From positions 99,541 to 163,540 of the forward strand of contig CABIVS010000003.1 of assembly GCA_902362375.1 (NCBI GenBank): 64,000 bases of DNA. The letters are read 5' to 3'. Positions 4,779 through 46,667 of the stretch are shown in pieces. This DNA is from Bacteroidaceae bacterium (GTDB taxonomy: Bacteria > Bacteroidota > Bacteroidia > Bacteroidales > Bacteroidaceae). Every line of letters begins with the position of its first letter. Within the stretch, counting starts at the first letter, position 1. A program made the position numbers and the translations under genes. The notes under the pieces are model-generated. The model saw only the letters and a program-made list of their open reading frames with translations, was not told the DNA's origin and did no database searches.

Positions 4779-4849
4779 CGATTAATTCGATTTTAAGTCA
4801 TTATTAATTCACTTTTGTGGAATTTATTAAGGGATGCCTCTTTACTTTG
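4779..4849 (+). promoter_or_regulatory. PUL promoter A: 11-bp heptamer array plus -7 box
   Basis: Three TTAA cores start at 4782, 4793 and 4804, exactly 11 bp apart. They form heptamers TTAATTC, TTAAGTC and TTAATTC reading towards the GH99-like/GH43 gene. The last base of the last TTAA (4807) is 35 nt from the first base of TTACTTTG (4842-4849), which fits the Bacteroides -7 consensus TAnnTTTG with one mismatch. A start site near 4856 would leave a leader of about 47 nt. The same layout occurs at three other promoters of this PUL. Promoter activity is inferred. Confidence 0.75.
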
Positions 4850-4902
4850 CTGAAAATAGTTTTAAGGACTTAATGGTATAACATGAAAAACAAAGAAATA
4901 AC

Positions 4903-7014
4903 ATGGTAAAAAGGTTGAATTGGTTATTGGTCTATTTATTGTTTTCAATAGGGATAATGGCACAGTCCGGCGGCAGGAAACAGTATAATTCTTACAAAGG
5001 ATTGGTTATGGCTGGTTATCAGGGGTGGTTCAACACCCCTGGTGACGGTTCCGGCCGTGGATGGCATCATTACAATGGTCGTGAAGGATTTCGTCCGGGA
5101 TCGTGTTCCGTAGATCTTTGGCCGGAGGTATCGGAGTATAAGAAGCTCTATAAAACGGATTTTACTTTTGAGGATGGTAAGTCTGCATCCGTCTTTTCTT
5201 CTTATGACAAATCGACTGTCAATGTTCATTTCAGATGGATGAAAGAGTATGGACTGGATGGAGTGTTCATGCAGCGTTTTATCGCAGAAATCCGGAATGA
5301 AAGCGGATTGCAGCATTTTAATAAAGTATTGAACTCGGCAATGAAAGCTGCTAATAAATATGAACGGGCTATTTGTGTAATGTATGACTTGAGCGGGATG
5401 CAGCCTGGAGAAGAAAAACTGCTGCTCAAAGACATTGCGGAAATTGCGCAACGCCATTCTTTAAAAAATCATGCGAAAAACCCTTCTTATCTGTATCACA
5501 ATGGCAAACCGTTGGTAACAGTATGGGGTGTGGGATTTAATGATAATCGTCGTTATGGATTGAAAGAAGCTGCACATATTATCGACGGCTTAAAATCACA
5601 GGGATTTAGTGTGATGCTTGGAGTACCTACCCAATGGCGGGAGCTGAAAGGGGATACGGAATCAGATCCCAGGTTGCATGAGCTTATCAGAAAATGCGAT
5701 ATTGTGATGCCTTGGTTCGTGGGACGTTACAATGAAACCACTTATCCGAAATATCAGAAGTTGGTGGAAGAAGATATCCAGTGGGCGAAAAAGAATCAGG
5801 TTGATTATGTACCGTTGGTTTTTCCGGGTTTCTCCTGGGGGAATATGAAAGGTAAAGATCATAATTCATTTATCCCCCGCAATAAAGGCTCTTTTCTTTG
5901 GAAACAGATGATGGGAGCTATCCGGGCGGGTGCCGAAATGATTTATGTAGCTATGTTTGACGAAATTGATGAGGGGACGGCTATCTTTAAATGTGCAAAG
6001 GAAGTTCCGACAGGGAAAAGTACATTCGTTCCTATCGAGGAGGGAGTGGAAAGTGACCATTATCTGAAACTGGTTGGTGAAGCCGCTAAGGTTCTGCGCA
6101 AAGAAAAGGCGATAGCTTTTAATACCAGTCTGAATCCGGCAACTCCGAATCCTTTCATCCGGCATATGTACACAGCAGACCCTTCGGCTCATGTTTGGGA
6201 AGACGGACGTCTGTACGTATATGCTTCCCATGATATTGCACCTCCGCGAGGTTGTGATTTGATGGATCGTTATCATGTGTTTTCAACCGATGATATGGTG
6301 ACCTGGACGGATCATGGAGAGATATTAAGCTCCGATCAGGTGCCATGGGGACGCAAAGAAGGAGGATTTATGTGGGCTCCGGATTGTGCTTATAAAAACG
6401 GTACTTACTATTTTTATTTTCCTCATCCCAGTGAAACAGACTGGAACGACAGTTGGAAGATCGGAGTGGCTACCAGCAATAAACCGGCGGAAGGATTCAA
6501 AGTGCAGGGATATGTTGAAGGGATGGATCCGATGATTGACCCTTGTGTCTTTGTAGATGACGACGGGCAGGCGTATATTTATAATGGCGGTGGCGGCACC
6601 TGTAAAGGAGGTAAGTTGAAAGATAATATGATGGAGCTGGATGGTCCGATGCAACTCATGAAAGGACTGGAAGATTTCCATGAGGCAGCTTGGATTCACA
6701 AATATGATGGAAAGTATTATCTCTCTTATTCCGACAATCATGATGAAAACTGGAACGATGGAGTGAAGGGGGACAACCGGATGCGCTATGCGATCAGTGA
6801 CTCTCCGTTGGGACCTTGGGAATCGAAAGGTATTTATATGGAACCGACTGACAGCTATACCAATCATGGATCTATTGTCAAGTTCAAAGGACAATGGTAT
6901 GCCTTTTACCATAACAGTGCGTTGTCCGGACACGACTGGCTTCGTTCTATCTGTGTAGATAAACTGTATTACAATCCTGATGGTACGATAAAGTTAGTAA
7001 GGCAAACCAAATAA
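4903..7014 (+). CDS. GH71/99-like domain fused to GH43 glycoside hydrolase
   Basis: A two-domain secreted carbohydrate-active enzyme of 703 residues with a signal peptide ending near IGIMAQ (about residue 21). Residues ~30-385 form a GH71/99-like TIM barrel. Its FDEIDEGT motif keeps two glutamates three residues apart (Glu354, Glu357), the spacing of the GH99 catalytic pair. Residues ~415-700 form a five-bladed GH43 propeller with the expected triad: Asp426 (TADPSAHVW), Asp546 (MIDPCVF) and Glu594 (FHEAAW). GH43 enzymes usually remove arabinose, xylose or galactose, and the GH99-like half would act endo on an alpha-linked backbone if active. The gene is first in the rightward PUL operon, 49 nt before the GH3 gene. 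An 8-codon upstream ORF at 4883-4909 overlaps the start. Confidence 0.82.
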   Translation: MVKRLNWLLVYLLFSIGIMAQSGGRKQYNSYKGLVMAGYQGWFNTPGDGSGRGWHHYNGREGFRPGSCSVDLWPEVSEYKKLYKTDFTFEDGKSASVFSSYDKSTVNVHFRWMKEYGLDGVFMQRFIAEIRNESGLQHFNKVLNSAMKAANKYERAICVMYDLSGMQPGEEKLLLKDIAEIAQRHSLKNHAKNPSYLYHNGKPLVTVWGVGFNDNRRYGLKEAAHIIDGLKSQGFSVMLGVPTQWRELKGDTESDPRLHELIRKCDIVMPWFVGRYNETTYPKYQKLVEEDIQWAKKNQVDYVPLVFPGFSWGNMKGKDHNSFIPRNKGSFLWKQMMGAIRAGAEMIYVAMFDEIDEGTAIFKCAKEVPTGKSTFVPIEEGVESDHYLKLVGEAAKVLRKEKAIAFNTSLNPATPNPFIRHMYTADPSAHVWEDGRLYVYASHDIAPPRGCDLMDRYHVFSTDDMVTWTDHGEILSSDQVPWGRKEGGFMWAPDCAYKNGTYYFYFPHPSETDWNDSWKIGVATSNKPAEGFKVQGYVEGMDPMIDPCVFVDDDGQAYIYNGGGGTCKGGKLKDNMMELDGPMQLMKGLEDFHEAAWIHKYDGKYYLSYSDNHDENWNDGVKGDNRMRYAISDSPLGPWESKGIYMEPTDSYTNHGSIVKFKGQWYAFYHNSALSGHDWLRSICVDKLYYNPDGTIKLVRQTK

Positions 7015-7063
7015 GTGATTGCCCCTTTTAAATTTTATTTCTGCAATTAATAAATCTGATAGT

Positions 7064-9281
7064 ATGAAGTTGAATAAAATAGTCTGTTTAGCCGTTTTAT
7101 GCAGTGTAGGTAGTCGGATGACGGCACAGGAAACGTATCCGTTCCGCAATCCGCAACTCTCTGTTGAACAGCGTGTCGACGATCTGGTTTCCCGTTTGAC
7201 TTTGGAAGAAAAGGTGAAACAGATGTTGAATAGCACTCCTCCCATTGACCGTTTGGGTATTCCTGCTTATAACTGGTGGAACGAATGTCTGCATGGTATC
7301 GGTCGTACCAAATATCATGTCACCGTATTCCCACAAGCCATCGGCATGGCTGCTGCCTGGAATGATGCATTGATTAAAGAAGTTGCTTCCTCCATCGCTG
7401 ACGAGGGTCGGGCTATCTATAACGATGCGCAGCGTAAAGAGGATTATAGCCAATATCACGCATTAACTTACTGGACTCCTAATATAAATATATTCCGTGA
7501 TCCTCGCTGGGGACGCGGACAGGAAACCTATGGTGAAGATCCTTTTCTGACTTCTAAAATTGGAGAATCCTTTGTGTTGGGATTGCAAGGAGACAATCCC
7601 CGTTATTTAAAAGCTTCGGCTTGTGCCAAACACTATGCCGTGCATAGCGGGCCGGAGAAAAACCGTCATAGCTTCAACTCGGATGTAAGTACTTATGATT
7701 TGTGGGACACTTATCTGCCGGCTTTCCGTACATTGGTTGTTGATGCCAAGGTATCCGGCGTGATGTGTGCATACAATGCTTTTCAGGGGCAGCCTTGTTG
7801 CGGCAATGATTTGCTGATGCAATCTATTTTGCGTGATAAATGGAATTTTAAAGGATATGGTCACTTCTGATTGTGGCGCTATCGATGATATATTCAATCA
7901 CCATAAGACCCATCCGGACGCAGCAACGGCAGCAGCCGATGCCGTATTTCATGGAACCGACTTGGATTGTGGACAAAGTGCTTATCTGGCATTGGTCAAA
8001 GCGGTAAAAGACGGAATTATCACAGAAAAACAAATTGATGTATCTGTCAAACGTCTGTTTGAGATTCGTTTCCGCTTGGGATTGTTTGACCCGGTGGAAG
8101 AAGTGGATTATGCACGTATTTCTGTTTCTATTCTGGAATGTAGAAAACATCAGGATTTAGCCAAACAACTGGCACGTGAGTCAATGGTATTACTAAAGAA
8201 CGACCAATTATTACCACTTCAAAAGAATAAACTGAAAAAGGTGGTAGTAATGGGACCGAACGCAGACTGCAGGGAATCGTTACTTGGAAACTATAATGGA
8301 CAGCCTTCCCGTATGCTGACTCCTTTGCAGGCCATTCGTGAACGTTTGAATGGTTGGGCAGAAGTCATATATATAGAAGGTGTAGATCATGTAGATGCTG
8401 TTCCCGAAAATCAATTGAAAGAATACATGAGACAGTCCAAGGAAGCAGATGTCGCCATTTTTGTCGGCGGTATCAGCCCGAGACTGGAAGGTGAAGAAAT
8501 GCCGGTCAGCAAAGATGGATTTGATGGCGGCGACCGTACGACAATTGCTTTACCGGCAGTTCAAACTCAAGTGATGAAAGCATTGGCTGCAGAGCATATT
8601 CCGACGGTTTTTGTGATGATGACAGGCAGCGCATTGGCTATTCCCTGGGAAGCCAAGAATGTTCCGGCTATACTGAATGCCTGGTATGGCGGACAATATG
8701 GAGGAGAAGCTATTGCTGATGTATTGTTGGGAGATTACAATCCTTCAGGAAAGCTTCCGGTCACTTTTTATGCACAGGATAGTGATTTGCCCGACTTCGA
8801 ATCGTATGATATGCAGGGACGTACCTATCGCTATTTTAACGGAAAAGCTCTTTATCCTTTTGGCTATGGATTGAGCTATACGGATTTTACTTATTCTTCA
8901 CTGAACCTGCCTAAAGTCTGTCACACCACAGACGAGGAAGTGCAGGTAACTGTAACGGTGAAGAATACCGGACGGTTGGAAGGTGAAGAAGTAGTTCAGC
9001 TTTATATATCCCATCCTGATAAAAAGATATTGGTTCCGTTGACCGCATTGAAAGGTTTTAAACGGGTGCACTTACGGTCTGGTGAAGCACAACGCCTGAC
9101 ATTTTCCCTGTCTCCGGAAGACTTGTCTTGTGTGGATGAAAATGGCATCCGGAAGGTCCTGCCGGGAACAGTAAGAATACAGGTTGGCGGTTCTTCACCT
9201 GTGCCGACGCTGGCTACTCCTTTGAAACTGGTAGAAAGTACATTGAAAATGATTGGAAATACACATATAATAGATAAATGA
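7064..9281 (+). pseudogene. GH3 beta-glycosidase (xylosidase-like), broken by a +1 frameshift
   Basis: A GH3 enzyme split into two frames. The first (7064-7870) has a signal peptide (MKLNKIVCLAVLCSVGSRMTAQ) and the N-terminal barrel. The motifs YNWWNECLHG and KHYAVHSGPE are typical of the beta-xylosidase branch of GH3. The frame ends early after NFKGYGHF. The second frame resumes at the nucleophile motif TSDCGA (Asp codon 7869-7871) and carries the C-terminal sandwich and fibronectin-like domain, ending at 9281. Removing one base near 7857-7861 restores GYVTSDCGAIDD and a full-length protein of about 738 residues. No slippery sequence is present, so this is a mutation or a sequencing error rather than programmed frameshifting. 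The start at 7064 was chosen for the signal peptide. Confidence 0.85.
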
Positions 9282-9313
9282 GATTCTGATAATATTAGAA
9301 AAACGAATATAAC

Positions 9314-12178
9314 ATGAAAAACAAAATGAAATGGATGTTGGCAATAGGATTATTGTCATGTTCGATGGCAATGGCGCAGCAACAAAGTGATATACTGTCG
9401 GTATCGGCTTCTGCCAATGCGGACAATGCTGCTTTAGCTTTTGATAAAAATGTAAAGACGATGTGGACATTACCTTCGCAGGCACTAAAGACCGAGCAAT
9501 GGCTGATGTTTACCATCCAGCAACCGGGTGATGTTTGCGAACTGGATCTTCAGATGCAGGGAGTCAACAAAAATGAACTGAAAGAGGTATTGGATATCTT
9601 TGTCACTTATGACCCGATGAATCTGGGAACTCCCGTAAACAACCGGATAGAAGGCAATGACAAACAGATGAAAGTGAAATTCACTCCTAAATATGGTGCT
9701 CATGTCAAGTTGAATTTCAAGCCGGGAAAGCTGGATAAACCTTTCTCTCTAAAGGAGATTTCAGTATTGGTAGCAGAGAAGGTACTGACAGATAGTAAAG
9801 GGAAAGTGACTGACCGTCGTTATATGGATGCATCGCTTCCGGTAGAAGAACGGGTGGAAAGTCTGCTGGCAGTGATGACACCCGAAGATAAAATGGAATT
9901 GATTCGTGAAGGATGGGGGATTCCCGGTATTCCTCATTTATATGTACCGCCTATCACAAAAGTGGAAGCCGTACATGGTTTCTCGTATGGAAGCGGAGCG
10001 ACTATTTTTCCGCAGGCTTTAGCAATGGGAGCCACCTGGAACCGGAAGCTGACGGAAGAAGTGGCGATGGTAATCGGAGACGAAACGGTAGCTGCCAATA
10101 CAAAGCAGGCATGGTCACCGGTGCTGGACGTTGCGCAGGATGCACGTTGGGGACGTTGTGAAGAGACTTTTGGAGAAGACCCGGTATTGGTATCACAAAT
10201 AGGTGGTGCATGGATCAAAGGATATCAGTCCAGAGGATTATTTACCACTCCCAAGCATTTTGGCGGACATGGTGCTCCATTGGGTGGGCGTGACTCGCAT
10301 GACATCGGTTTGTCTGAACGTGAAATGCGTGAAGTTCACCTGGTGCCGTTCCGTCATGCTATCCGAAACTATGACTGTCAGTCTTTGATGATGGCTTACT
10401 CCGATTATATGGGTATTCCGGTTGCCAAGAGTATGGAACTGCTGCAACAGATTTTACGGCAGGAATGGGGCTTCAACGGATTTATTGTCAGTGACTGTGG
10501 TGCTATAGGTAATCTGACTGCCCGTAAACATTATACGGCACAAGACAAGATTGAAGCTGCTAACCAGGCATTGGCTGCCGGTATTGCAACTAATTGCGGT
10601 GATACTTATAACAATAAAGAAGTGATTCAGGCCGCCAAAGACGGCCGCATCAACATGGAAAATCTGGACAACGTATGTCGTACCATGCTTTCTACCATGT
10701 TCCGTAATGAACTCTTTGAAAAGAATCCCTGCAAACCGTTGGACTGGAAGAAGATTTATCCGGGATGGAACTCTGACAGCCATAAAGAGATGGCACGTCA
10801 GGCAGCCCGTGAATCTATCGTAATGTTGGAGAATAAAGAGAACCTTCTGCCTTTGACCAAGAACCTGCGTACAATAGCTGTACTGGGTCCCGGAGCAGAC
10901 GATCTCCAACCGGGTGATTACACTCCGAAATTACTACCCGGACAGTTGAAGTCCGTATTGACAGGCATTAAAGAGGCTGTTGGTAAGCAAACGAAAGTTC
11001 TTTATGAACAGGGTTGTGACTTTACAAATCCAGATGAAACGAATATTCCCAAAGCAGTAAAAGCAGCTTCTCAATCCGATGTTGTAGTAATGGTATTGGG
11101 GGATTGTTCTACCAGCGAAGCCACCAATGATGTTCGCAAGACATGCGGCGAGAATAATGACTGGGCCACTCTGATTCTGCCGGGTAAACAACAGGAATTG
11201 CTGGAAGCGGTTTGTGCGACAGGTAAACCGGTGATTCTGATTCTTCAGGCAGGACGTCCTTATGATATTCTGAAAGCATCGGAAATGTGTAAAGCTATTC
11301 TCGTAAACTGGTTACCGGGACAGGAAGGCGGCCCGGCAATGGCAGATGTACTGTTTGGTGATTATAATCCCGGCGGTCGCTTGCCGATGACTTTTCCGCG
11401 TCACGTAGGACAACTTCCTTTATATTATAATTTCAAAACATCGGGGCGTCGTTACGAATATGTAGATATGGAATATTATCCTCTTTACCGTTTCGGATTC
11501 GGTCTTAGCTATACCTCTTTTGAATATTCGGATTTGAAGATACAGGAAAAACCGAATGGAAATGTGACGGTTCAGGCTACAGTGAAGAATACAGGAAGCC
11601 GTGCCGGTGATGAAGTAGTACAATTGTATGTGACGGATATGTATGCCAGCGTCAAGACCCGTGTTATGGAGTTAAAGGATTTCGATCGTATTTATTTGCA
11701 ACCGGGAGAATCGAAAACCGTCTCTTTTGAACTGACACCATACGATATTTCATTGCTCAATGACCACATGGACAGAGTAGTGGAAAAAGGAGAATTCAAA
11801 ATATGTGTCGGTGGCATGAGTCCTGACTATGTGGCCAAGAATGAGATTAAACATAGTGTGGGTTACAGCGATAAGAAAAAAGGGGTGACCGGTATGCTTA
11901 ACTATACGCACGAATTCGGTGCCGACTTTATCCTTTCTATATCCAAAGTGGAAGAGAATCTGACGAAGAATCAAAAGACTGTATGGGTCAGCGTGAAAAA
12001 CAATGGCACGCTGATGGATATTGGCAAGGTGGAAATGTTTGTTGACGGCAAAAAAGCAGGGGATGCCATTCATTATGAACTGGGAGCCGGAGAAGAAAAA
12101 CTGATTCCGTTCAAACTGGATAAAGACAACAAGCAACCTGTTGCTTTTACTACTAAATATAAGATGGTGGTTCTGTAG
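9314..12178 (+). CDS. GH3 beta-glycosidase with N-terminal discoidin-like domain
   Basis: A periplasmic GH3 enzyme of 954 residues, longer than usual. A signal peptide (MKNKMKWMLAIGLLSCSMAMAQ) is followed by a beta-rich domain at ~25-155 that looks like an F5/8 type C (discoidin) carbohydrate-binding module. The GH3 barrel (~165-500) has KHFGGHG and the nucleophile Asp394 in IVSDCGAI. The C-terminal GH3 sandwich follows, then a fibronectin III-like domain (~720-800; VKNTGSRAGDEVVQLYV) and an extra beta domain of about 130 residues. It lies 32 nt after the frameshifted GH3 gene in the same operon and might partly cover its loss, but the two differ in active-site motifs. Beta-glucosidase or beta-xylosidase activity cannot be decided. 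Confidence 0.87.
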   Translation: MKNKMKWMLAIGLLSCSMAMAQQQSDILSVSASANADNAALAFDKNVKTMWTLPSQALKTEQWLMFTIQQPGDVCELDLQMQGVNKNELKEVLDIFVTYDPMNLGTPVNNRIEGNDKQMKVKFTPKYGAHVKLNFKPGKLDKPFSLKEISVLVAEKVLTDSKGKVTDRRYMDASLPVEERVESLLAVMTPEDKMELIREGWGIPGIPHLYVPPITKVEAVHGFSYGSGATIFPQALAMGATWNRKLTEEVAMVIGDETVAANTKQAWSPVLDVAQDARWGRCEETFGEDPVLVSQIGGAWIKGYQSRGLFTTPKHFGGHGAPLGGRDSHDIGLSEREMREVHLVPFRHAIRNYDCQSLMMAYSDYMGIPVAKSMELLQQILRQEWGFNGFIVSDCGAIGNLTARKHYTAQDKIEAANQALAAGIATNCGDTYNNKEVIQAAKDGRINMENLDNVCRTMLSTMFRNELFEKNPCKPLDWKKIYPGWNSDSHKEMARQAARESIVMLENKENLLPLTKNLRTIAVLGPGADDLQPGDYTPKLLPGQLKSVLTGIKEAVGKQTKVLYEQGCDFTNPDETNIPKAVKAASQSDVVVMVLGDCSTSEATNDVRKTCGENNDWATLILPGKQQELLEAVCATGKPVILILQAGRPYDILKASEMCKAILVNWLPGQEGGPAMADVLFGDYNPGGRLPMTFPRHVGQLPLYYNFKTSGRRYEYVDMEYYPLYRFGFGLSYTSFEYSDLKIQEKPNGNVTVQATVKNTGSRAGDEVVQLYVTDMYASVKTRVMELKDFDRIYLQPGESKTVSFELTPYDISLLNDHMDRVVEKGEFKICVGGMSPDYVAKNEIKHSVGYSDKKKGVTGMLNYTHEFGADFILSISKVEENLTKNQKTVWVSVKNNGTLMDIGKVEMFVDGKKAGDAIHYELGAGEEKLIPFKLDKDNKQPVAFTTKYKMVVL

Positions 12179-12208
12179 AGCCATCACCTTCATCTAATTC
12201 CTGATAAA

Positions 12209-13924
12209 ATGAAACAATTACTTTTGGTTTCGTGCTTGCTGTCACTGTCCGCTATCTTGGGATTGCCGGAAGTGAAAGCAGATGTAAGGATGCCTTTGAT
12301 TTTCGGCAACCACATGGTTTTGCAGCAAGATACCCGGATTACGATTTGGGGATGGGCTGATGCCGGAGAAAACATTGAAGTACTCTTTGCCGGACAAAAA
12401 GTGAGAACCACTGCCAATGCCGACGGGACATGGCAGGTAAAATTGAAGCCGGTAAAAACGAAGAAAAAAGGAGAGACGCTGACTATTACCGGAAAAAATA
12501 AACTGGTTTATTCGGATGTACTGGTAGGTGATGTATGGGTTGCTTCCGGACAATCAAATATGGAGTGGGGGATCAAGGTCAGAAAAGAATATGCTGATGA
12601 TATAGCTCATTCGGAAGATTCATTGTTACGTTTATTCTTTGTTCCTAAAAATACATCGCTACAGCCATTGTCGGAGATTGAAATTCCTCAAGGAACAGCC
12701 AGTCCCGAACGGGCTGCCAGGTGGGTGCTTTGTACTCCGGAGATGCTGGCAAAAATAAATGGGCAGGGTTTCTCTGCTACTGCCTATTACTTTGCACGTG
12801 ATATGCGCGTTGCAAACGGACGTCCGTTAGGAGTGATACAGTCCGCCTGGGGTGGTACACGTGCAGAAGCTTGGACAAGCCTTTCCGGGCTAAAGCAGGA
12901 GCCAGCATTGGCTCATTATGTAGCTGCTTACGAGAAAAATGTGAAAGATAATCCGGAAATACTGGCTACTTATCCGCAAAAGCAGAAAGAGTTTGATACA
13001 GCAGTCAGAGAATGGGATCAAACAATAGGTAAAGAGTGGAATCAGGCACAGAAAGAATGGGCGGTAGCCGTACGGGCTGCACAAGCCGATGGGAAACCAG
13101 CGCCCGCCAAACCGGAACCCAGAGTACCTCGTCCACCCAATCCACGTAAACCGGACGGTGGAAATAACGGCCCGGCTAATCTGTTTAACGCCATGATTTT
13201 TCCTTTAATTCCGTTAAGTATCAAAGGTGTAATCTGGTATCAGGGTGAATTTAATTCCGGTGGCTCGGCAAAAGAATATGCGACACTTTTTTCCCGGATG
13301 ATTACAGATTGGAGGGAGAAATGGGGAATAGGAGATTTTCCTTTTGTATATGTACAGCTTCCTAATTTTGAGCCTGTAGATCAGGAGCCTTCTGTTGAGG
13401 GGAACGGTTGGCGTTGGGTGCGCGAAGGTCAGTTGAAAGCACTGAGCCTGCCTAATACTGCGATGGCGGTAACGATTGATGTTGGCGACCCGTTCGATTT
13501 GCATCCGGTTGATAAATATGATGTAGGACATCGGTTAGCTCTTGTTGCCCGTAAATTGGCATATGGAGAGAAAATTGTTGGTATGGGACCTCTTTATAAG
13601 AAAATGTCAGTGAAGGGCAATAAAATTATTTTGGAGTTTACCAATCAGGGTAAGAAGTTGATGATAGGGACTTCTCCCTATATCCCTGAAGGAGAACAGG
13701 CTCGTCCAAAGCCGACAAAGCTCACGGGATTTGGCATTGCCGGGACCGACCGTAAATTTGTTTGGGCGGATGCCGTCATAGAAGGTAATAAGGTCATTGT
13801 ATCGAGTCCTGAAGTTGCCGAACCCGTAGCTGTACGCTACGGATTTTCCAATAGCCCGCGTTGTAATCTGTATAATGAGGAAGGGTTGCCGGCATCGCCT
13901 TTTCGTACAGATCACTGGGAATGA
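12209..13924 (+). CDS. SGNH-type carbohydrate acetylesterase (sialate O-acetylesterase-like, CE20-type)
   Basis: A secreted SGNH-hydrolase esterase of 571 residues, with a signal peptide ending near PEVKA (about residue 25). The N-terminal beta domain has MVLQQ, the usual opening of this family. The nucleophile is Ser116 in ASGQSNMEW, and the acid and base are probably Asp430 and His432 in FDLHPVD. A helical, charged insertion with a proline-rich stretch lies at ~250-320. Database entries often call such proteins sialate O-acetylesterase. CE20 enzymes of this architecture have been described from a xyloglucan locus in Xanthomonas, so deacetylation of a plant glycan is the likelier role in this setting. 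It sits 30 nt after the GH3 gene. The family WYQGES motif reads WYQGEF here. Confidence 0.83.
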   Translation: MKQLLLVSCLLSLSAILGLPEVKADVRMPLIFGNHMVLQQDTRITIWGWADAGENIEVLFAGQKVRTTANADGTWQVKLKPVKTKKKGETLTITGKNKLVYSDVLVGDVWVASGQSNMEWGIKVRKEYADDIAHSEDSLLRLFFVPKNTSLQPLSEIEIPQGTASPERAARWVLCTPEMLAKINGQGFSATAYYFARDMRVANGRPLGVIQSAWGGTRAEAWTSLSGLKQEPALAHYVAAYEKNVKDNPEILATYPQKQKEFDTAVREWDQTIGKEWNQAQKEWAVAVRAAQADGKPAPAKPEPRVPRPPNPRKPDGGNNGPANLFNAMIFPLIPLSIKGVIWYQGEFNSGGSAKEYATLFSRMITDWREKWGIGDFPFVYVQLPNFEPVDQEPSVEGNGWRWVREGQLKALSLPNTAMAVTIDVGDPFDLHPVDKYDVGHRLALVARKLAYGEKIVGMGPLYKKMSVKGNKIILEFTNQGKKLMIGTSPYIPEGEQARPKPTKLTGFGIAGTDRKFVWADAVIEGNKVIVSSPEVAEPVAVRYGFSNSPRCNLYNEEGLPASPFRTDHWE

Positions 13925-13958
13925 CACAAATACCGGAATAAATAAAAAGAAAAACACC

Positions 13959-15656
13959 ATGAAGAGATCTACTCATCTATTAATTGCAAGCGTATTGGCA
14001 GGATGTATCACTTCCTGTTCATCAGGAAAGCGAATCGCCCAACATCGGATAGTAACTAATCCGATGAATCTGAACTACCGGTTTCAACCGAAAGACGAAT
14101 CGCGTCGGGAAGCTGCTGATCCGGTATTGGAGTATTTTAAAGGCTATTATTATTTATTTGCGTCCAAGTCCGGTGGATATTGGCGCTCTGAAGATCTGGC
14201 CGACTGGGAATATGTTCCTTGTACGACTATCCCCACATTGGAAGATTATGCTCCTACCATTCTTCCAATAGGAGATACGCTCTATTTTACTACTTCCAGT
14301 GGGAAAACACAGATTTTCAAAAATGCCCATCCGGAAAAAGATACTTGGGAGGCTGTAGATACCAAACTGACCTACCGGCTTCACGACCCGGCTTTCTATA
14401 GTGATGAGGACGGTAAGGTGTATATGTATTGGGGGTGTTCGGATAAGGACCCGATTATGGGGGTGGAAGTAGATCCGAAAGACGGTTTTCGTGCGTTGGG
14501 TGAAGCCAAAGCACTGATCGCGCATCATGGAGACAAGTATGGCTGGGAAGTTCCCGGAAAGAATAATGAAGAACCGCGTCAGGGATGGAACGAAGGACCT
14601 TGTATGCTGAAATATGAAGGACGTTACTATTTGCAATATGCGGCTCCGGGTACTCAATATCGTATCTATGGCGATGGAATCTATGTAGGAGATACTCCTT
14701 TGGGGCCTTTTGAATATGTGGAAGACAATCCGTTCTCATTTAAACCGGGAGGCTTTATCGGTGGGGCAGGACACGGACATACTTTTCGGGATAAGTATGG
14801 AAACTACTGGCACGTAGCTTCCATGATCATTTCCGTTCGTCATATGTTTGAACGGCGGTTGGGACTTTTCCCGGTTGCTGTATCCAGTCGCAACGGTATA
14901 TATGCTCACACAGTCTGGTCGGATTATCCTTTCTATATTCCTAACCGGAAAGTTGATTTTGATAAAACAGATTTGAGTATGGGATGGAATCTGCTTTCAT
15001 ACCGGAAACCGGTACAGGCTTCTTCGTCTCTTGCCGGCTATGAACCGGGCAATGCAAATGATGAACAGATTGAAACATGGTGGGCTGCTCAAACCGGAAA
15101 AAAGGGCGAATGGTTGCAGGTTGATTTGGAGACTCCAATGTTGGTAAATAGTATACACGTGAATTTTGCCGACCATCACTTCAAGGTTTTCGCACCACAC
15201 CCTCCCGTTGTTTATCAATTTTTTATCGAAGGTTCGGCAGATGGGAAAAAATGGATGAATTTGTTTGATGAAACAGAGAATGGAAAAGATGAGCCTCATC
15301 GCCTGTTTACGTTGGATAAACCCGTGAAGGTCCGTTATTTGAGAATTTGTAACGCTAAAGAGATGGATGGGTGCTTCTCTTTATCCGGTTTCCGTGTATT
15401 TGGTAAAGGAGAAGGTGCTGCTCCTTCTAAGGTGACAGGCTTCCGGGCAATTCGGGATTCGGAGGATAAACGAATGTACCGTTTCACTTGGGATGCACAA
15501 GAAGGGGCTACCGGATACGTGTTACGGTGGGGAACACAGAAAGATAAGTTAACGCACGCAGTGACGGTATTTGACAATCAATATGAAGCCCGTTACTTTA
15601 ACAGAGACTCGGAATATTATTTCTCGATAACGGCATTTAATGAGAATGGTAATTAG
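13959..15656 (+). CDS. GH43 family lipoprotein with F5/8 type C and fibronectin III domains
   Basis: A glycoside hydrolase family 43 lipoprotein of 565 residues. The signal peptide ends in a lipobox-like ITSC, and the following SSGKR lacks the acidic export signal, so a periplasm-facing lipoprotein is likely. The catalytic propeller (~45-340) shows the expected acids in ADPVLEYF, HDPAFY and NEGPCMLKY. A discoidin-like module follows (~370-500; ETWWAAQTGKKGEWLQVDL) and then a fibronectin III domain (~510-565). The start at 13959 replaces a longer frame that begins inside the upstream gene. The C-terminus is abrupt: deleting one A in ggtaattagt (about 15645-15655) would let the frame continue as NGISEMKGR into the GH2 relic, so the last residues have probably been altered by a frameshift. 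Confidence 0.82.
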   Translation: MKRSTHLLIASVLAGCITSCSSGKRIAQHRIVTNPMNLNYRFQPKDESRREAADPVLEYFKGYYYLFASKSGGYWRSEDLADWEYVPCTTIPTLEDYAPTILPIGDTLYFTTSSGKTQIFKNAHPEKDTWEAVDTKLTYRLHDPAFYSDEDGKVYMYWGCSDKDPIMGVEVDPKDGFRALGEAKALIAHHGDKYGWEVPGKNNEEPRQGWNEGPCMLKYEGRYYLQYAAPGTQYRIYGDGIYVGDTPLGPFEYVEDNPFSFKPGGFIGGAGHGHTFRDKYGNYWHVASMIISVRHMFERRLGLFPVAVSSRNGIYAHTVWSDYPFYIPNRKVDFDKTDLSMGWNLLSYRKPVQASSSLAGYEPGNANDEQIETWWAAQTGKKGEWLQVDLETPMLVNSIHVNFADHHFKVFAPHPPVVYQFFIEGSADGKKWMNLFDETENGKDEPHRLFTLDKPVKVRYLRICNAKEMDGCFSLSGFRVFGKGEGAAPSKVTGFRAIRDSEDKRMYRFTWDAQEGATGYVLRWGTQKDKLTHAVTVFDNQYEARYFNRDSEYYFSITAFNENGN

Positions 15657-16813
15657 TGAAATGAAAGGTCGTTCTTCATGGAAAAAAGGTTCCGGGATAG
15701 CTCCGGAACTGACAGCTCCCCAACCCGGCAAATGGGAAAAAGTAAAGATTAAAATCCCTTCTGCAATCAATGTCAATGACTGGGGAAGAGGTAGCAAGGT
15801 TGGAGCAGGGACACCACGACCGTATACACCGAGTTCGGTCTATTTCCCTAGCTATCCGGAACATTGGGTATATACCCGCATGGGATGGTTGTGTCGTAAC
15901 TTTCGTATTCCTGCCTCTCATGGCCTGAAACAGGAAGACCTTCCCAAAGATTTGAATAAACCGTTGATTGCTTCCTTTATATAAACCTTTGCCCATGTTC
16001 AATGCACTGAAAGCCGCACTCAAAGGCAGTGAATGGACTACATTCGAAGAAGTAAAACATCCGGTGAAACCGGAATATCCTTCTCCTGTTTATCCTGTTG
16101 CCTGTCTGATTGGACAGCCTCGTCCGGATTTAATGGATTTCATAACCAAAGCCGGTTTGGGGTTAACAGACCAGCCGAAAAAAGCAAACTTATGGATCAT
16201 AGATGCCGAATCGGTGACAGCCGAAGATTTGCAGCGCATACAACCAGCTTTGAAAAAATGGAAAAAGAAAGGGGGAATGGTACTGGCATTGAGCATCGGA
16301 CAGAAATTGAGTGATGACTTCTGTCACTGGTTGCCGGAGAAAGTAAAACTGACCGACCGCAGAGCTACGGCTTTAGAGATGAACAGAAATACTTCCTGGG
16401 GAAATTATTTTGAACTCCCCGATTTGTATTTTAGTGAGATGGAGGGTGACCGCTACATCTTAAAACAGGGATTATCCGGAGCATTGACCGAAAAGGGGAA
16501 TATCGTATTAAAAGCCTCCCGTACAGACTGGAGCTTGTTCAATACGTCTCCCGAACATTGGAAGTGTGCGCAGGTCGTATTATGTGAAGCATTGCAGAAA
16601 CCCGGGGGAGCAGCTTTAGTGACTTATCCTCTACAAGAGAATGTAAATCTGGTGTTGTCTGTGATTGACTATCGTTTACAGACGAAAGAAACGAATGTCT
16701 CCTGGAATTCCATGATGCGTGTAATGGGAATTGCAACATACGGAGCCGACTTCAATTCTCATGATGTAAAGAACAAGAAACATGGTTTGTTGATGGACGG
16801 CCCTGTAGATTAG
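15657..16813 (+). pseudogene. GH2 glycoside hydrolase relic with internal deletion
   Basis: Remains of a large GH2 gene in two frames. The first (about 15660-15984) matches the N-terminal jelly-roll of the GH2 at 43313-46555: here GIAPELTAPQPGKWEKVKI and FPSYPEHWVYTRMGW, there AAPELPLPKDGSNW and YPSYPKEWEQVKMAW. The second (15968-16813) matches its C-terminal region, joining at LPLYKPLPMFNALKAA against LPLYQEWPMYSALRAA, with a shared glycine-rich segment and a shared TDW motif. The signal peptide, about 500 central residues including both catalytic glutamates, and the last ~120 residues are missing. At least two deletions and frame changes are needed to explain this, so the gene is dead. Either frame might be expressed as a fragment within the operon, but no function is expected. 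Confidence 0.8.
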
Positions 16814-16886
16814 AAAGTGGGAAAGTGATTCCGGAGCAAGTGCTACGAACAATTATAAAAGAAAATATGATAGAAAAATGGTGATA

Positions 16887-19439: not shown

Positions 19440-19458
19440 ATTGTATCATAGTTGTTGA

Positions 19459-32465: not shown

Positions 32466-32487
32466 AACTGTCTTTCTTTTTATTTTA

Positions 32488-34482: not shown

Positions 34483-34487
34483 CGCTG

Positions 34488-37400: not shown

Positions 37401-37775
37401 TAAGTCCATAGCTGTTACTACTGTCTGTTCCAACATTACAGCATCTTCATCCAACGTCACATTCAATACATTCTTTCCTTTTACTATATTGAATGATTTG
37501 GTTTTAAAACCAATATAGGAGAATTTCAATACAGCACCGTTTTCAGGAACTTGAATAGAATACTTGCCATCAAGATCGGTTATTACACCTTTTGTTCCGC
37601 CCACTATCACTACATTGGCACCGATAATAGGCTCACCTTGTGTGTCGGTCACTGTTCCTTTTACTGTCCGGTTTTGTGCTTGCACTACCGAAACGCTGAA
37701 CAGCATTAAAATAAAAATGAGACTTCTTTCATAGCATCTCATGTACTGAGAAAATCGTTGTTTCATGTTTTTCAT
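34488..37775 (-). CDS. SusC/RagA family TonB-dependent glycan transporter
   Basis: An outer-membrane TonB-dependent transporter of 1095 residues. A signal sequence (LIFILMLFSVSVVQAQ) is followed by the carboxypeptidase-regulatory-like domain typical of SusC (KGTVTDTQGEPIIGANV, ~38-115). The plug domain (~125-255) contains RIRGANSISGNNQPLYVIDG and ALYGSDAANGAILITTK. A 22-strand barrel extends to the C-terminal aromatic residues. It heads the leftward operon susC-susD-three lipoproteins and is driven by promoter C, which leaves a long leader of about 135 nt. It should import oligosaccharides released at the surface. Met4 (37766) is an alternative start. Confidence 0.95.
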   Translation of the reverse strand: MKNMKQRFSQYMRCYERSLIFILMLFSVSVVQAQNRTVKGTVTDTQGEPIIGANVVIVGGTKGVITDLDGKYSIQVPENGAVLKFSYIGFKTKSFNIVKGKNVLNVTLDEDAVMLEQTVVTAMDLRRDEKSLSTAFQKMDIEGMTENRDAGFVNMLAGKVAGLQVISNGAAGSATVRIRGANSISGNNQPLYVIDGVPIINDVTGGEIDYGNPANSINPDDIENIVVLKGANASALYGSDAANGAILITTKKAGQKSGLGITYSTNVQFTEFSQYPIYQNIYGGGHINRFENNKANSFNGDVKVPYDPNMPYGIQRMEGYDNSRSWGMPMLGFQVVGRNGELKAYVPTPENTTSMYQTAYSWTNSVSIERATEHVSTRIGFTNLRSDDVLEGLNKLTRNAFNVRSNVKLTKSLDVDLNGRYTHEHVNNRSYRNNSDRNPIYTLMDMPRDLSIQEMYPWKDENGKPTALQFKSPVWMLNELSNQDKKEWLLADVTVNYKLTKDLKLRLKAALDLNMKEGYEFRNMYTPGDADGFYKEFTEKARNYTYEAMLSYNKTWKDFNISASVGANSQDFLFKKQNSEVGTLATSDFISLTNNGATIKSWPEYNAKKKQAIYGTVSVGYKDFIYLDVTGRNDWSSALPSDNRSYFYSSYGVSFVLTELVKSIPKDWLSYAKFRGSYAKVGNDTGFDQLLNGFSYNTSYLGDMAWFESENKRKTNTLKPESTTSFETGLDLRFLQDRASFSFTYYNKNTKNQILTSTINGVSGYGEALFNAGEVKNWGYEVTLGVVPFRNKDWEWKVDINWAKNNSEVVSLANGMDYMTLTTVQNSVELRIVKGEPLVSLYCREPWKTNDEGQVLVGANGRPLSGEAKFLASVEPKWTGSIRTSLRWKDLSFSAMLDIRMGGHVWSETAFQSSRNAQSIMSLGGRTEHLFADMILNEGDQTGYLGILDSKYVPSGKNNIYMDASRPKGMNIPGAVYDSSVPGLAGQPCQAWIKPIDYWTNDSGKNGELYLYDASYVKLKEISLGYNIPKNWLRKIGFIQSMRISAVGRNVAILHQKTPKGIDPEATSSMGIQQGLERGFNLPTSSYGFDFKITF

Positions 37776-37918: not shown

Positions 37919-38000
37919 CAAAAGAACTATAAGACGATAAAAAAAGAGGGGTGTTCGCGATTAATTGGGAATTAAAAAACAATTAAATGTGAATTAAGTC
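37919..38000 (-). promoter_or_regulatory. PUL promoter C: four-unit 11-bp heptamer array plus -7 box
   Basis: Four TTAA cores start at 37994, 37983, 37972 and 37961, each exactly 11 bp apart. The minus-strand heptamers are TTAATTC, TTAATTG, TTAATTC and TTAATCG. TTCTTTTG (37926-37919), one mismatch from TAnnTTTG, begins 35 nt after the last TTAA. This is the longest of the four arrays and stands before the susC-like gene, beside the regulator gene proposed to bind it. The rest of 37776-38222 holds only the terminator at 38123-38176. Confidence 0.78.
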
Positions 38001-38222: not shown

Positions 38223-40808
38223 TTATAAGTCGGCAAATGGGATTTTGTAGCTTTCACCCATCGAGTCGTGATATTCTTTGCAGAAACGATCATATAGGTT
38301 TCGAGCTATACCTTTTTTCCCTTGTGCGGCCAGTACTGTACATTTAGCAGCCAGAGCCTCCTCATTGAGCGGGTCATGCAGGAACATGATGTCGGCAAGC
38401 CGGATAATCATATCCTGATGATTCCGGCTGATTTCAATATCCAGCAAATTTTTTAATAAGTCAATAGAATGACTGGAATAGGCATCTTTAAAATCGTCCA
38501 GCCAATCAACAATGGTATTGGGTAATAAAGGACCATATAGCAATAACTCTAAAATTCTATTGAGCAATTCTTCACTTTTCACTTGTTCGAATTGTTTGGT
38601 ACATGCAAGTAATGTGTGGTAATCGCAAAAAACATTTGTTCCCCATTTTATACGCAAGAAATTGTTTTCTATCATTACTTCCATATCTCCGATACTTTCC
38701 AACAATACCCGTAGCTTGCGCAGATTTACATTACGGTTATTGCGGGCGGCTGTTTCTTCTTTTTCCGGCCATAGTATTTCCGTTGTTTTGGAAGTTAGGA
38801 TGCCTTGGGCATTTTTTTCTGTATAAAGTATCAGCAGAATAAGCAAGTGTTTCAGACGGGGGGTAAAATTGGATGTGATGTCATTTCCATTTTTATCGCG
38901 TACATTGAAACAGCCCAACAAAGAAATAGATGCACGGCTACGGTCATAATAATTGATCGTTTTTGTGAAAACGGATTCCGTGTCTTGTATTCTTTCTTTT
39001 TTCGGTATGATTCTGGATTCAGGCATTCCTGGTTGTTTGAGGCTGTCTTCAGTTGTTGCAGTGGGAGTTTCTTCTATAATCCTCCCGGCTGCAGATGCTT
39101 TTTTCTTTTTACTGCTGTATTTGAAACGGTAGAATACTAAACCGACCAATGCAAGTAGCAGTAAGACTCCGGCGGTATAGAAATGCCATCGGCTGTTAGC
39201 GCTTTCTTCAACTGTTGACTGCCGGATATCCATTTCATTTACGAGAGGCATATTGATGGCGTAAATAGCCACATCATGTGTGTGGTTACTTAGTATTTTA
39301 TCTAATACTAAGAATAACTTTCCATGTGACGGAGAAGTATAAAGGCTGAAGTCACAATCCTGATAAGTTGATTCGTTATAAATGGGCTTGGAAACTTCCG
39401 TATAGACGGAATCTTTCATTGAAATCTTCCATAACACACCTCCTTTATTTGTCGAAACAGCATAAAAGGAACTATCCGATGGCTCGAAATACATGGAAGA
39501 GGCCATTATCGTACCATCTTCTTTGGGATTATTTTGTTGCCAGACTATACGTGACTGCTTATTTTTCAGATTGATGGAGCATAATCCCCAATAATAATGG
39601 CTACTCAACTCTTGTTTGCCATACTTGTTTCCTCTACCGCCGAAGATATATAATTCATCGCCCACTAGAGCCATAGCTGCCGAATAACGGGGGTAGAGGG
39701 GACGTTCGTATTCTATTTGTTCCACTTTGTTAGTACCGGATTTCATCCGGTAAAGATCGTTGCGGTATTGGTAGAAACCATAACCTCCGAAAAAGTAGAA
39801 ACAAGAGTCTGCCGGATTAAAAGTTTTGGCATGATTATAATTGGTGGCTTCTTCTGTGTTGCGTATCTCATTACTCCATTTTTCTGTGTCAAATGAGAAA
39901 CTGGAAATTATGCCTTTCTTGGGATAATAAGACACAAGCTTATTGCTTAAAGTATCATATAAGAGATGATTGGGGAATTCTACAGCCGGATAGCCTCCAC
40001 GCACTATCACTTCGTTCTGCAAAACTCCATTCTCGTCTAAGATTTCGATTGATTGGGATTTGACTAAATAAAATAAGGCCTCACGGGCATTGAAGGCCAC
40101 GTTCAGTTTTCCCGGAATTTTAGCCTGATGAACAAGTTTCCATTCGATATGATTGTCTATTAACCATAAGGGATGGACAGCACGTGCCACAGCTCTTTCT
40201 ATTTCATCATAACAGACATTATCATTATGCTTCCACAACTTCCATTCACGTATCTGTTTTCCATCTTGTATGATGGTTATATTTCTAAGATTTATTGGAG
40301 CTACATCTGCCAGATAGTTTTGCATTTGTCCGAATAAAGCGGTAACACTTTTCACTCCTTGTAAGGGAGCCATAGCTGATATTTTCTTGTTATCGTAATC
40401 TATTTCTATGACATTATCCTTCAAACGCAAGTGCAAAGAAACATCCAGCCATTTTTCTCGTTCTATGGGGCTGTTAATGTTGACGATGCCTTCATTGAGA
40501 ACCAACGCTGGAAAATGTCTTTCTTCACCTGCGACAAATGAAAAACGGATATATTGATTGGTGTTTGTATGCAGATGGAGAATAGAGCCGAAGTCATGCT
40601 CATTGACACGTACATACATTTGAAAAGAAATCGTGAAATCGTTTTTTATAGAGAAAGGTTGGTTATCATCCAAGTACAAGGTTGTTCTCTCAATTCCAGC
40701 TACTGCATGGGATTTGAGAGAAAGTCCATAATCATACAAAGAAGATGCGTCCACTTTACCTACCATGCAAAGCAGGACGAAGAGCAAAATTTGTAGTTGA
40801 TATTTCAT
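38223..40808 (-). CDS. Membrane-spanning one-component regulator: LamG/propeller sensor with SARP-type output
   Basis: An 861-residue predicted regulator. After a signal peptide (QILLFVLLCMVGKVDA) come a LamG-like jelly roll (~25-205) and a beta-propeller-like region with Kelch features (~215-530; FYFFGGYGFY, DELYIFGGRGNKYG). One membrane helix follows (~544-562, GVLLLLALVGLVFY), then a KYSSKKKK stop-transfer and a polar linker. The cytoplasmic part starts near residue 626. It has an OmpR-like winged helix (SISLLGCFNVRDKNG; LTSKTTEILWPEKE; NRNVNLRKLRVLLESIG), then a helical BTAD-like domain to the end, the arrangement of SARP activators. No kinase or receiver domain is present. The gene sits between susC and GH92, suggesting it senses a product of this PUL and binds the 11-bp arrays. 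Annotation as a Kelch or galactose oxidase protein would miss the output domain. Confidence 0.82.
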   Translation of the reverse strand: MKYQLQILLFVLLCMVGKVDASSLYDYGLSLKSHAVAGIERTTLYLDDNQPFSIKNDFTISFQMYVRVNEHDFGSILHLHTNTNQYIRFSFVAGEERHFPALVLNEGIVNINSPIEREKWLDVSLHLRLKDNVIEIDYDNKKISAMAPLQGVKSVTALFGQMQNYLADVAPINLRNITIIQDGKQIREWKLWKHNDNVCYDEIERAVARAVHPLWLIDNHIEWKLVHQAKIPGKLNVAFNAREALFYLVKSQSIEILDENGVLQNEVIVRGGYPAVEFPNHLLYDTLSNKLVSYYPKKGIISSFSFDTEKWSNEIRNTEEATNYNHAKTFNPADSCFYFFGGYGFYQYRNDLYRMKSGTNKVEQIEYERPLYPRYSAAMALVGDELYIFGGRGNKYGKQELSSHYYWGLCSINLKNKQSRIVWQQNNPKEDGTIMASSMYFEPSDSSFYAVSTNKGGVLWKISMKDSVYTEVSKPIYNESTYQDCDFSLYTSPSHGKLFLVLDKILSNHTHDVAIYAINMPLVNEMDIRQSTVEESANSRWHFYTAGVLLLLALVGLVFYRFKYSSKKKKASAAGRIIEETPTATTEDSLKQPGMPESRIIPKKERIQDTESVFTKTINYYDRSRASISLLGCFNVRDKNGNDITSNFTPRLKHLLILLILYTEKNAQGILTSKTTEILWPEKEETAARNNRNVNLRKLRVLLESIGDMEVMIENNFLRIKWGTNVFCDYHTLLACTKQFEQVKSEELLNRILELLLYGPLLPNTIVDWLDDFKDAYSSHSIDLLKNLLDIEISRNHQDMIIRLADIMFLHDPLNEEALAAKCTVLAAQGKKGIARNLYDRFCKEYHDSMGESYKIPFADL

Positions 40809-40928: not shown

Positions 40929-40991
40929 ATATGAAGATGTCCCAAAATAGAATGTAGGAAATGAAAATTCTATTTTGCGACATCTTCATAT
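40929..40991 (-). terminator. Terminator of the GH2-GH92 operon
   Basis: A long inverted repeat: ATATGAAGATGTC...AATAGAAT (40929-40953) pairs with ATTCTATT...GACATCTTCATAT (40967-40991), 25-nt arms with two or three mismatches. It directly follows the GH92 stop on the minus strand. The AT-rich sequence beyond suits termination before the regulator gene. Confidence 0.7.
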
Positions 40992-46300: not shown

Positions 46301-46555
46301 TGGTAATTCGGGAGCTGCTCCTTTACCTTGTTTATAGTCTTTCGGTAAAGCAATGGGTTGGAAATCCCAATAGCCATTTAAACAAATTTCTTGGCGATGC
46401 TCTTTCTCGGTTTTATTCACCAGACCTTCACTGGGAGCGAAAGGATAGGGATAGAGTAATTTTTGACTGTTAGTCGCCGTTTGTGCATTTGTCTGTACGG
46501 GCTGTAAGGTAAAACTTGCCAGCAAACTGCACAATAGGATTAGATTTTTTTTCAT
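43313..46555 (-). CDS. GH2 family glycoside hydrolase
   Basis: A secreted GH2 enzyme of 1080 residues with a signal peptide ending near PVQTNAQ. The sugar-binding jelly roll (~50-215) has LNGYWDFQP and IKIPSPWNINAFG. The barrel carries Glu492 in WSISNENKP (acid/base) and Glu570 in WGIGEHSMAYYG (likely nucleophile). A long C-terminal region has a GATase-like fold segment (~700-850) and a final beta domain (~960-1060; LQGWNKLVIKIGDGD). This is the intact relative of the relic at 15657-16813, and the shared stretches show that the PUL once had two such enzymes. Promoter D lies 84 nt upstream. Beta-galactosidase or beta-glucuronidase activity is possible. Confidence 0.88.
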   Translation of the reverse strand: MKKNLILLCSLLASFTLQPVQTNAQTATNSQKLLYPYPFAPSEGLVNKTEKEHRQEICLNGYWDFQPIALPKDYKQGKGAAPELPLPKDGSNWSKTRIKIPSPWNINAFGYRDLEGPDHRNYPSYPKEWEQVKMAWMKKNITIPSNWTGRQIKLYFEAVAGYSEVYVNKEKIGENFDLFLPFSFDITDKVTPGETIEVLVGVRSQSLFEDNSTIGRRIIPGGSMWGYHINGIWQDVYLLALPQIHIEDVYVKPLVAKNTLEIEVTIQNKTNRKADIQLQGNVREWINYAGTDINSAPVPAWTLGTEALQVAPRKVSIAANASQIITLQVPVNENILQYWTPEQPNLYALLLSIKDKKQTIDTKYERFGWREWTLQGTTQYLNGKPYALHGDSWHFMGIPQMTRRYAWAWFTAIKGMNGNAVRPHAQVYPRFYMDMADEMGICVLNETANWASDGGPKLDSDHFWEASKEHLKRFVLRDRNHASVFGWSISNENKPVILHVYNRPELIPAQQKAWKEWRDIVRLYDPTRPWISSDGEDDGNGILPVTVGHYGDINSMKNWINIGKPWGIGEHSMAYYGTPEQVSKYNGERAYESQEGRMEGLANECYNLIANQRRMGASYSTVFNMAWYALKPLPLGKKDITKAPDVREDGVFFGEYKEGIPGVQPERVGPYCTTFNPGYDPTLPLYQEWPMYSALRAANAPGAPAWSPYAIIDKEQYKAHKTTNPDKNYKEVVFIGNPESKVKHLLNAQGVAFASKITTPSSLLYIIDGSQVLDDTTQKEIQKQLAKGADLWIWGITPETVGRYNDILPLPVALEPLKRSSFLPVQKAWMQGLNNSDFYFCELQKADASNYSLKGTFVEEGDILLNACKTDWRKWNKRPEEIKTAGTIRSEYECTSATPVFVKYQQGASSFYLSTLTEFANSEKGYNTLSMILKNAGISYQKPETNINEVFFLRDEQINFPVATKEKFVKKDNGWTLEFYVFSPRPLDDLLIEPNMPKLSLMLKAKTRELFINDTPYTSISHDGRNEVIYKEIPLLQGWNKLVIKIGDGDRNDFSGFFKCDNKKDFLPTLKAAFTNPEAR

Positions 46556-46596
46556 ATTTGTACATTAATAGTTTTTCTGATATTATTAGTTAACGG

Positions 46597-46667
46597 CAAA
46601 GTAAAAGGAAAAGTATTAAAAAGGAGGAATGAAATGGCTTAATCTGGGATTAAAAAGTGATTAATTG
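46597..46667 (-). promoter_or_regulatory. PUL promoter D: 11-bp heptamer array plus -7 box
   Basis: TTAA cores start at 46661, 46650 and 46639, exactly 11 bp apart. The minus-strand heptamers are TTAATCA, TTAATCC and TTAAGCC. TTACTTTG (46604-46597) is the same 8-mer as in promoter A and starts 35 nt after the last TTAA. It drives the GH2-GH92 pair with a predicted leader of about 35 nt. Confidence 0.75.

Follow-up and report, generated by a model that had tools for sequence, protein, structure and literature searches.

Heptamer arrays at four promoters of a Bacteroidaceae polysaccharide utilization locus, probable operators of a membrane-anchored SARP-type regulator

Four promoters in a polysaccharide utilization locus (PUL) of a Bacteroidaceae bacterium carry arrays of the heptamer TTAAKYS, repeated every 11 bp and set at a fixed distance from a -7-like box. 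The PUL lies in the 64-kb stretch of DNA analyzed here, referred to throughout as the window, and the arrays precede four candidate transcription units. Within the same PUL, at 38223-40808, is the gene for a regulator whose C-terminal part has the fold of the Streptomyces antibiotic regulatory proteins (SARPs). In related genomes, arrays of this kind lie predominantly near SARP-type genes. We consider it highly probable that the four arrays are the operators of this regulator, and that it is a membrane-anchored SARP activator with a local regulon.

Promoter geometry and its distribution

The pattern TTAA-N7-TTAA-N7-TTAA occurs five times in the window, making four arrays, one of which has four copies. 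The number expected from dinucleotide shuffles is 0.02, and none of 100 shuffles attained five. All nine pairs of TTAA at 11 bp in the window lie inside the four arrays. Read toward the gene, heptamer position 5 is T or G, and position 6 T or C, in all 13 copies; position 7 is C or G in 11 of the 13 (counted on the window sequences). An earlier, sequence-only reading had located the four arrays and fitted TTAAKYS to most copies. Both observations hold, the whole heptamers running slightly further than the blocks it had marked. The arrays and boxes are as follows.

4782..4810, + strand: array 1, distal heptamers TTAATTC, TTAAGTC and TTAATTC at -60, -49 and -38 from the box
4827..4833, + strand: proximal heptamer TTAAGGG, its end 8 bp short of the -7-like box
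4842..4849, + strand: box 1, TTACTTTG, one mismatch to the Bacteroides consensus TAnnTTTG
4903-7014: glycoside hydrolase family 43 (GH43) gene downstream of array 1 (weak GH99 match), with further genes behind it
26062..26090, - strand: array 2, distal heptamers TTAAGCA, TTAAGTG and TTAAGCG, upstream of a GH2 gene (likely ATG 25993)
26039..26045, - strand: proximal heptamer TTTATTG, one mismatch to TTAAKYS
26023..26030, - strand: box 2, TACTTTTA, -7-like
37958..37997, - strand: array 3, four distal heptamers TTAATTC, TTAATTG, TTAATTC and TTAATCG, upstream of SusC (34488-37775) and SusD
37935..37941, - strand: proximal heptamer TTTATCG, one mismatch
37919..37926, - strand: box 3, TTCTTTTG, -7-like
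46636..46664, - strand: array 4, distal heptamers TTAATCA, TTAATCC and TTAAGCC, upstream of GH2 (43313-46555) and GH92 (41006-43267)
46613..46619, - strand: proximal heptamer TTAATAC, TTAA exact
46597..46604, - strand: box 4, TTACTTTG, -7-like
38223..40808, - strand: SARP-type regulator, 861 aa, encoded within the arrayed PUL

At all four arrays the last TTAA base is exactly 35 nt from the first base of the box, as the sequence-only reading had it. The boxes, in order TTACTTTG, TACTTTTA, TTCTTTTG and TTACTTTG, resemble TAnnTTTG, the -7 consensus described for Bacteroides promoters in PMC7366714. What that reading overlooked is a proximal heptamer, often degenerate, that starts at -15 from the box in every window promoter (TTAAGGG, TTTATTG, TTTATCG and TTAATAC). 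In a position-weight scan of the window the arrays score 40.7, 37.3, 36.9 and 31.3, the next distinct site 18.0, and the best of 40 control loci 23.5. They are the only distinct window sites to exceed the control maximum; one extra high score comes from array 4 itself, in a register displaced by 11 nt. The four promoters differ outside the lattice positions, and we reject the idea that they are copies of one duplicated promoter.

Genes for proteins of this kind, and the arrays with them, recur in related genomes. SARP-type genes number 103, in 60 of 158 genomes of the genus (E <= 1e-15); these 158 include an earlier set of 119, with 39 newly added. In the 119, 78 hits were retained at an E-value of about 3e-17 or better, and weaker ones excluded. 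Sixty of the 78 regions were taken as L111-L170, six are in L022-L038, and 12 were omitted, mostly short or edge contigs or partial genes. Phylum-wide, the domain was found in 11 of 296 genomes, G001 included (E <= 1e-12), and with this rarity the family looks centered on Bacteroides and near kin. Orthologues of the window regulator number six in the genome scan and are 59-87% identical. The five orthologue-bearing genomes carry TTAA triples at 39 places, 34 of them no more than 60 kb from a SARP gene, in a zone that makes up at most 5.8% of those genomes. Some triples outside the orthologous PUL adjoin other SARP genes. Many arrays at random sites, the outcome that the sequence-only reading had named as telling against it, were thus not seen in this genome-wide check. 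The stricter triple TTAAKY occurs 46 times in the 119 genomes (reversed control, 9). Thirty-two of these occurrences have a SARP gene within 60 kb. Forty-one are in SARP-bearing genomes, the remaining five being in genomes without a SARP hit. These triple counts used the 78 SARP hits. The lattice-site proximities given below for 69 sites used all 103.

A near-identical array 1 is present in G001, G002, G003, G005, G088 and G107. At the locus in G107 (L220, G107:C1:4850000-4869999) array 1 is kept, no orthologous regulator was found, and the stretches that match the two flanks of the PUL are about 2 kb apart. This is probably a deletion scar with a relic operator.

In the intergenic DNA of 59 other SARP loci (L112-L170), distances between TTAA motifs peak at 11 bp (123 pairs), 23 (76), 34 (59), 12 (56) and 22 (52), and most other distances of 4-20 bp have 13-31 pairs. 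Measured from exact TAnnTTTG boxes at these loci, TTAA averages five per offset and peaks at -15 (30), -27 (29), -38 (27) and -60 (17); a further peak at -1 (27) overlaps the box itself. When TTAA was required at three positions of the lattice -15/-27/-38/-49/-60, and no more than one mismatch in the box was allowed, 61 promoters emerged in 29 of the 59 loci. Shifting the lattice by 1-6 nt leaves 0-9. The orthologue set, which includes L111 and consists of 16 pieces from six genomes that are not independent, has 26 such promoters in 15 pieces; 40 control regions have one. A straight 11-11 register (-37/-26/-15) exceeded its control maximum in seven of 31 loci, and most shifted registers did so in 2-7 of 60. 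By eye, L129, L130, L137 and L138 have this register in place of the 12-bp proximal step, in a count not clearly above background.

The lattice offsets had been drawn from the loci on which they were first tested, and they were therefore retested on whole genomes. A triple at -38/-27/-15 with the box, written TNNNTTTG in this search, occurs at 69 sites in the 158 genomes, as against two with the box moved 2 nt and one with the pattern reversed. Thirty-four of these proximal-type sites have a SARP gene within 60 kb, 19 are one conserved sequence, and 16 are elsewhere, 14 of the last in SARP-bearing genomes. The 39 previously unused genomes account for 18 sites: 11 near a SARP gene, three of the unlinked family and four elsewhere. 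The distal triple 35 nt from the box occurs at 65 sites in 21 genomes (box moved 2 nt, one; reversed, one). At least 52 of these have a SARP gene within 60 kb, the figure being a lower bound since the SARP genes used were 42 of the 103, hand-picked from genomes with array hits. A chance origin of the arrays is rejected by the shuffles, the shifted-register counts, and the shifted-box and reversed whole-genome controls. Lattice promoters also occur in L226 (G059:C1:195000-214999) and at G075:C1:221565, with no SARP gene detected within 200 kb on the contig; possibly these are regulon members in trans.

The 65 distal-type sites were selected for the distal triple and the box, and the stretch between was free to vary. 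TTAA begins at -15 in 53 of the 65 (28 of 35 non-redundant); the second-best offset, -27, has TTAA in six. A heptamer TTAANNN starting at -15 leaves 8 bp between its end and the -7 box. In the account of SARP promoters in PMC10936776, repeats are 11 or 22 bp apart, and the 3' repeat is 8 bp from the -10 element. Since the -15 heptamer has this published distance, the 35 nt is the distance of the distal block of three or four copies. It is not itself the SARP contact spacing; the proximal heptamer fills the gap. The slot at -27, about where a -33 element would be, is mostly empty in the distal class and filled in the -38/-27/-15 class. In 29 of the 65 distal-type sites, hand-selected as dissimilar, no clear TTTG was found at -33, the sequence there being only T-rich, with T-rich stretches around -29 to -27.

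The regulator and its putative targets

The sequence-only reading had called the regulator SARP-like, and structure prediction bears this out. The model has, in order, a signal-like N-terminal helix, a beta-rich domain (~40-200), a Kelch propeller (220-523), a hydrophobic helix (539-565), a disordered linker (566-616), and a winged helix followed by BTAD/TPR (~625-861). The membrane helix and signal were assigned by reading the sequence. The beta-rich domain matched nothing found, and LamG-like is our guess for it. Searched at full length, the predicted fold gave a list filled mainly by propellers, and the DNA-binding half was therefore folded alone. For residues 620-861 the only Foldseek matches at E <= 0.001 are AfsR and EmbR; both Foldseek and VIA place these two at the top, aligned across nearly the whole domain. 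Searches of the whole regulator against Pfam, NCBIfam and PDB sequences returned Kelch or nothing (in Pfam at E <= 0.001, Kelch-type families only), and a PDB profile search of the DNA-binding half returned mostly TPR proteins among its matches. Across the aligned family members, BTAD is detected in 31 of 68 and Trans_reg_C in eight of 68 (E <= 1). No relatives were confirmed in viral contigs. Three loci in three genomes (L146, L147 and L148) encode SARP-type proteins of about 487 aa in similar runs of 300-510-aa open reading frames; no lattice site above the control maximum was found there.

Fourteen orthologous promoters were compared, those of 60% identity or less over 87 nt having been excluded. 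Position 6 changed in 14 of 45 comparisons, and 13 of the changes stayed within T/C. Position 5 changed four times, always within T/G. Spacers changed in 11 of 124 comparisons. That TTAA cores changed in none of 180 is no evidence, as the sites had been chosen for TTAA. Position 5 also varies with the regulator. Across 45 sites, at loci with an aligned regulator and none more than 80% identical to another, SARPs with the putative recognition helix NNR have T 61, G 36, C 5 and A 1 at this position, and those with NLK or NSR have T 18, C 14 and G 4. For G against C, Fisher's test gives p of about 2e-6, which overstates the case since the sites are related. The counts suggest, in outline, a specificity code linking recognition helix and heptamer position 5.

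The arrays, their spacing, the proximal element, the SARP fold and the co-distribution with SARP genes come directly from sequence and comparison; the mechanism built on them, including binding and oligomer size, topology, ligand, activation and use of the -7 box, we infer. The regulator would transduce a signal as a one-component system. A glycan fragment would be sensed in the periplasm, by the part that contains the Kelch propeller, and one transmembrane helix would join this sensor to the cytoplasmic SARP-type DNA-binding and BTAD half. Neighboring SARP halves would occupy successive TTAAKYS heptamers along the same DNA face. The operator would comprise distal heptamers at -60, -49 and -38 from the start of the -7 box (in array 3 also -71), plus the proximal one at -15, the counterpart of the site at which the downstream SARP protomer of Streptomyces touches sigma region 4. 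From the distal block and the proximal heptamer, the SARP halves could contact sigma region 4 and polymerase in the way described for AfsR in PMC10936776. Ligand-bound regulator would thus recruit or hold RNA polymerase at the four promoters, and the PUL would be induced as one unit. The regulator gene itself would probably be expressed without induction.

Several points weigh against this interpretation. At the level of the protein, BTAD scores 19.3 bits in the window regulator, under the Pfam cut-off of 22.1, and Trans_reg_C is absent from it by Pfam. At the level of the motif, two of the four window proximal copies are TTTA rather than TTAA, and position 7 is loose: among orthologues it changed seven times, and three of the seven remained C/G. 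The window's own promoters are among the 56 sites used to make the position-weight matrix, and the ranking of the window sites is therefore in-sample; the initial counts on the lattice share this weakness. The 40 control regions were random and without a SusC homologue, and hence not PUL-matched; of the controls, only the whole-genome scans are. In 31 of 60 SARP loci there is no lattice site above the control maximum. The reversed triple pattern occurs 17 times in the five orthologue-bearing genomes, against 39 forward. For 13 of the 65 distal-type sites and 16 of the 69 proximal-type ones, the contig, often a short one, shows no SARP gene closer than 60 kb. The whole-genome distal pattern would miss window promoter 2, whose box ends TTTA, and several sites in the 39 new genomes are near-copies of earlier sites, not all independent. 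Finally, in 19 genomes (G001:C32:206514, G004:C57:242350 and one site in each of 17 more) the -38/-27/-15 lattice and box are matched by one conserved sequence, beginning TTAACATC, and in none of them does its contig have a SARP gene within 60 kb of it.

Three other explanations were weighed. In the first, no dedicated regulator is involved: the arrays serve RNA polymerase as UP elements, or bend the DNA as phased A/T tracts. In its favor, the 11-bp step of TTAA is close to the helical phase, the distal copies lie within possible reach of the alpha subunit, and the distal-type promoters have T-rich stretches around -29 to -27. Against this, a general promoter feature would not be expected to cluster at SARP genes as 34 of the 39 triples do, nor to hold positions 5 and 6 to T/G and T/C in all 13 window copies, mostly kept between orthologues, with position 5 varying with the putative recognition helix. 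We regard this explanation as very improbable. In the second, which we think slightly less probable again, the arrays bind another protein, either the WYL-domain protein encoded at 3626-4675 or a regulator of the neighboring fructan-type PUL. The WYL gene is divergent from array 1, and five of the 46 TTAAKY triples are in genomes without a SARP hit. But a WYL homologue is present in two of the five orthologue genomes (L022 and L027) and in none of the 60 SARP loci (fetched pieces), whereas the arrays track SARP genes, and on this ground the WYL protein is rejected. The fructan PUL itself has no array, and for a hybrid two-component binder the direct repeats reported in PMC3878776 average a 21-bp distance. 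In the third, least likely of all, the regulator binds the arrays as a repressor released by glycan, as a membrane sensor might and as the reach of the distal arrays past the usual -33 position could allow, although the repeats lie upstream of the box without covering it, and their position and spacing, 8 bp from the -7 box, fit SARP activators.

Gene context in the window

The genes behind the arrays, and a feature between two of the units, are as follows.

4903..22107, + strand: genes behind array 1, GH43, GH3 (two frames), GH3, SASA esterase, GH43, two short open reading frames, GH3-PA14 and GH95
26495..37775, - strand: genes behind array 3, SusC, a SusD-like protein, a weakly WbsX-like protein, DUF5010/CBM35 and a 901-aa protein without a Pfam match
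40929..40991, - strand: strong hairpin separating the GH92 and regulator genes, -32.1 kcal/mol, z -6.7

By position-weight scan of the window, no array precedes the regulator gene (38223-40808). The hairpin at 40929-40991 is possibly a terminator or insulator. With no array and with the hairpin upstream, the regulator is probably expressed independently of the switch. The same scan found no array in the fructan-type PUL (GH32, SusC/D; 47155 on, 47-63 kb). The sequence-only reading had held that sensor, operator and regulon could all be proposed from the window; this is supported for the arrayed PUL, and the regulon seen does not take in the window as a whole. A match to the FopS small-RNA family (Rfam RF04319, 77.8 bits) adjoins the fructan PUL at 62676-62742 (- strand). 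One GH3 gene behind array 1 (7019-9281) is in two overlapping frames, N-terminal 7019-7870 and C-terminal 7833-9281, owing to a frameshift that is either genuine or an assembly error.

Comparison with known regulators

AfsR and the other Streptomyces SARPs share with the window system an OmpR-type winged helix followed by BTAD, 11-bp direct repeats, and a nearest repeat 8 bp from a -10-type element. They differ from it in several ways. In the window regulator the SARP half sits behind a membrane helix and an N-terminal beta-rich and Kelch part. Its operator has three or four distal heptamers and one proximal, with a TTAA core and a mostly empty slot between. The promoters are of the Bacteroides -7 type, and the neighboring genes are glycan genes. 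EmbR of Mycobacterium tuberculosis has the SARP-type winged helix and BTAD fold in common with the window regulator and is not known to have a membrane part. EmbR carries a C-terminal FHA domain, as PMC10936776 describes, and the window regulator does not. Streptomyces SARP promoter geometry is found here in a phylum whose primary sigma factor and promoter differ, and this has a bearing on the mechanism of SARPs with RNA polymerase generally.

ToxR and CadC are membrane-bound one-component activators of the OmpR family, with an N-terminal winged helix and a C-terminal periplasmic domain. As modeled, the window regulator is the reverse, its sensor N-terminal and its winged helix and BTAD C-terminal after the membrane helix. 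A B. faecis protein (L219:4421-6124), which we take to be SusR from its position beside SusE/SusF hits and from gene order, has no SARP profile match even unfiltered, and an hhalign probability of 0.1%; with this one presumed SusR compared, the notion that SusR is a hidden SARP is rejected by sequence. SusR-like proteins are nonetheless close in layout to the window regulator, being described in PMC3878776 as membrane regulators with a periplasmic sensor and a cytoplasmic C-terminal DNA-binding part; the motif given there has two sites 67 or 77 bp apart. The hybrid two-component systems of Bacteroides PULs, in the same source, also have a periplasmic sensor and direct-repeat operators, but no kinase, receiver or AraC domain was detected in the window regulator (Pfam, E <= 0.001).

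Regulation of Bacteroides PULs is described in PMC3878776 (Ravcheev et al. 2013) through SusR-like proteins, hybrid two-component systems and extracytoplasmic function (ECF) sigma factors, and searches of open-access literature turned up no link between SARPs and Bacteroides PULs. The window system would add a further type of PUL sensor, with a readable cis code, such that operators and regulons could be proposed from sequence in many genomes; the lattice is present at only about half of the sampled SARP loci. Much more speculatively, and we think doubtfully as a whole, these proteins may form a class of PUL regulator distinct from the SusR, hybrid two-component and ECF classes. In it, membrane-tethered SARPs would polymerize on a heptamer lattice of 3+1 or longer. 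In one class of promoter the vacant -27 slot would let sigma region 4 stay with its own DNA; in the other, an occupied slot would mean displacement of sigma as in Streptomyces. Induction would draw the four operons of the PUL together, as a unit, to the inner membrane. By modeled fold and promoter geometry, the window regulator is a SARP; by its predicted layout, it is a membrane sensor like SusR.

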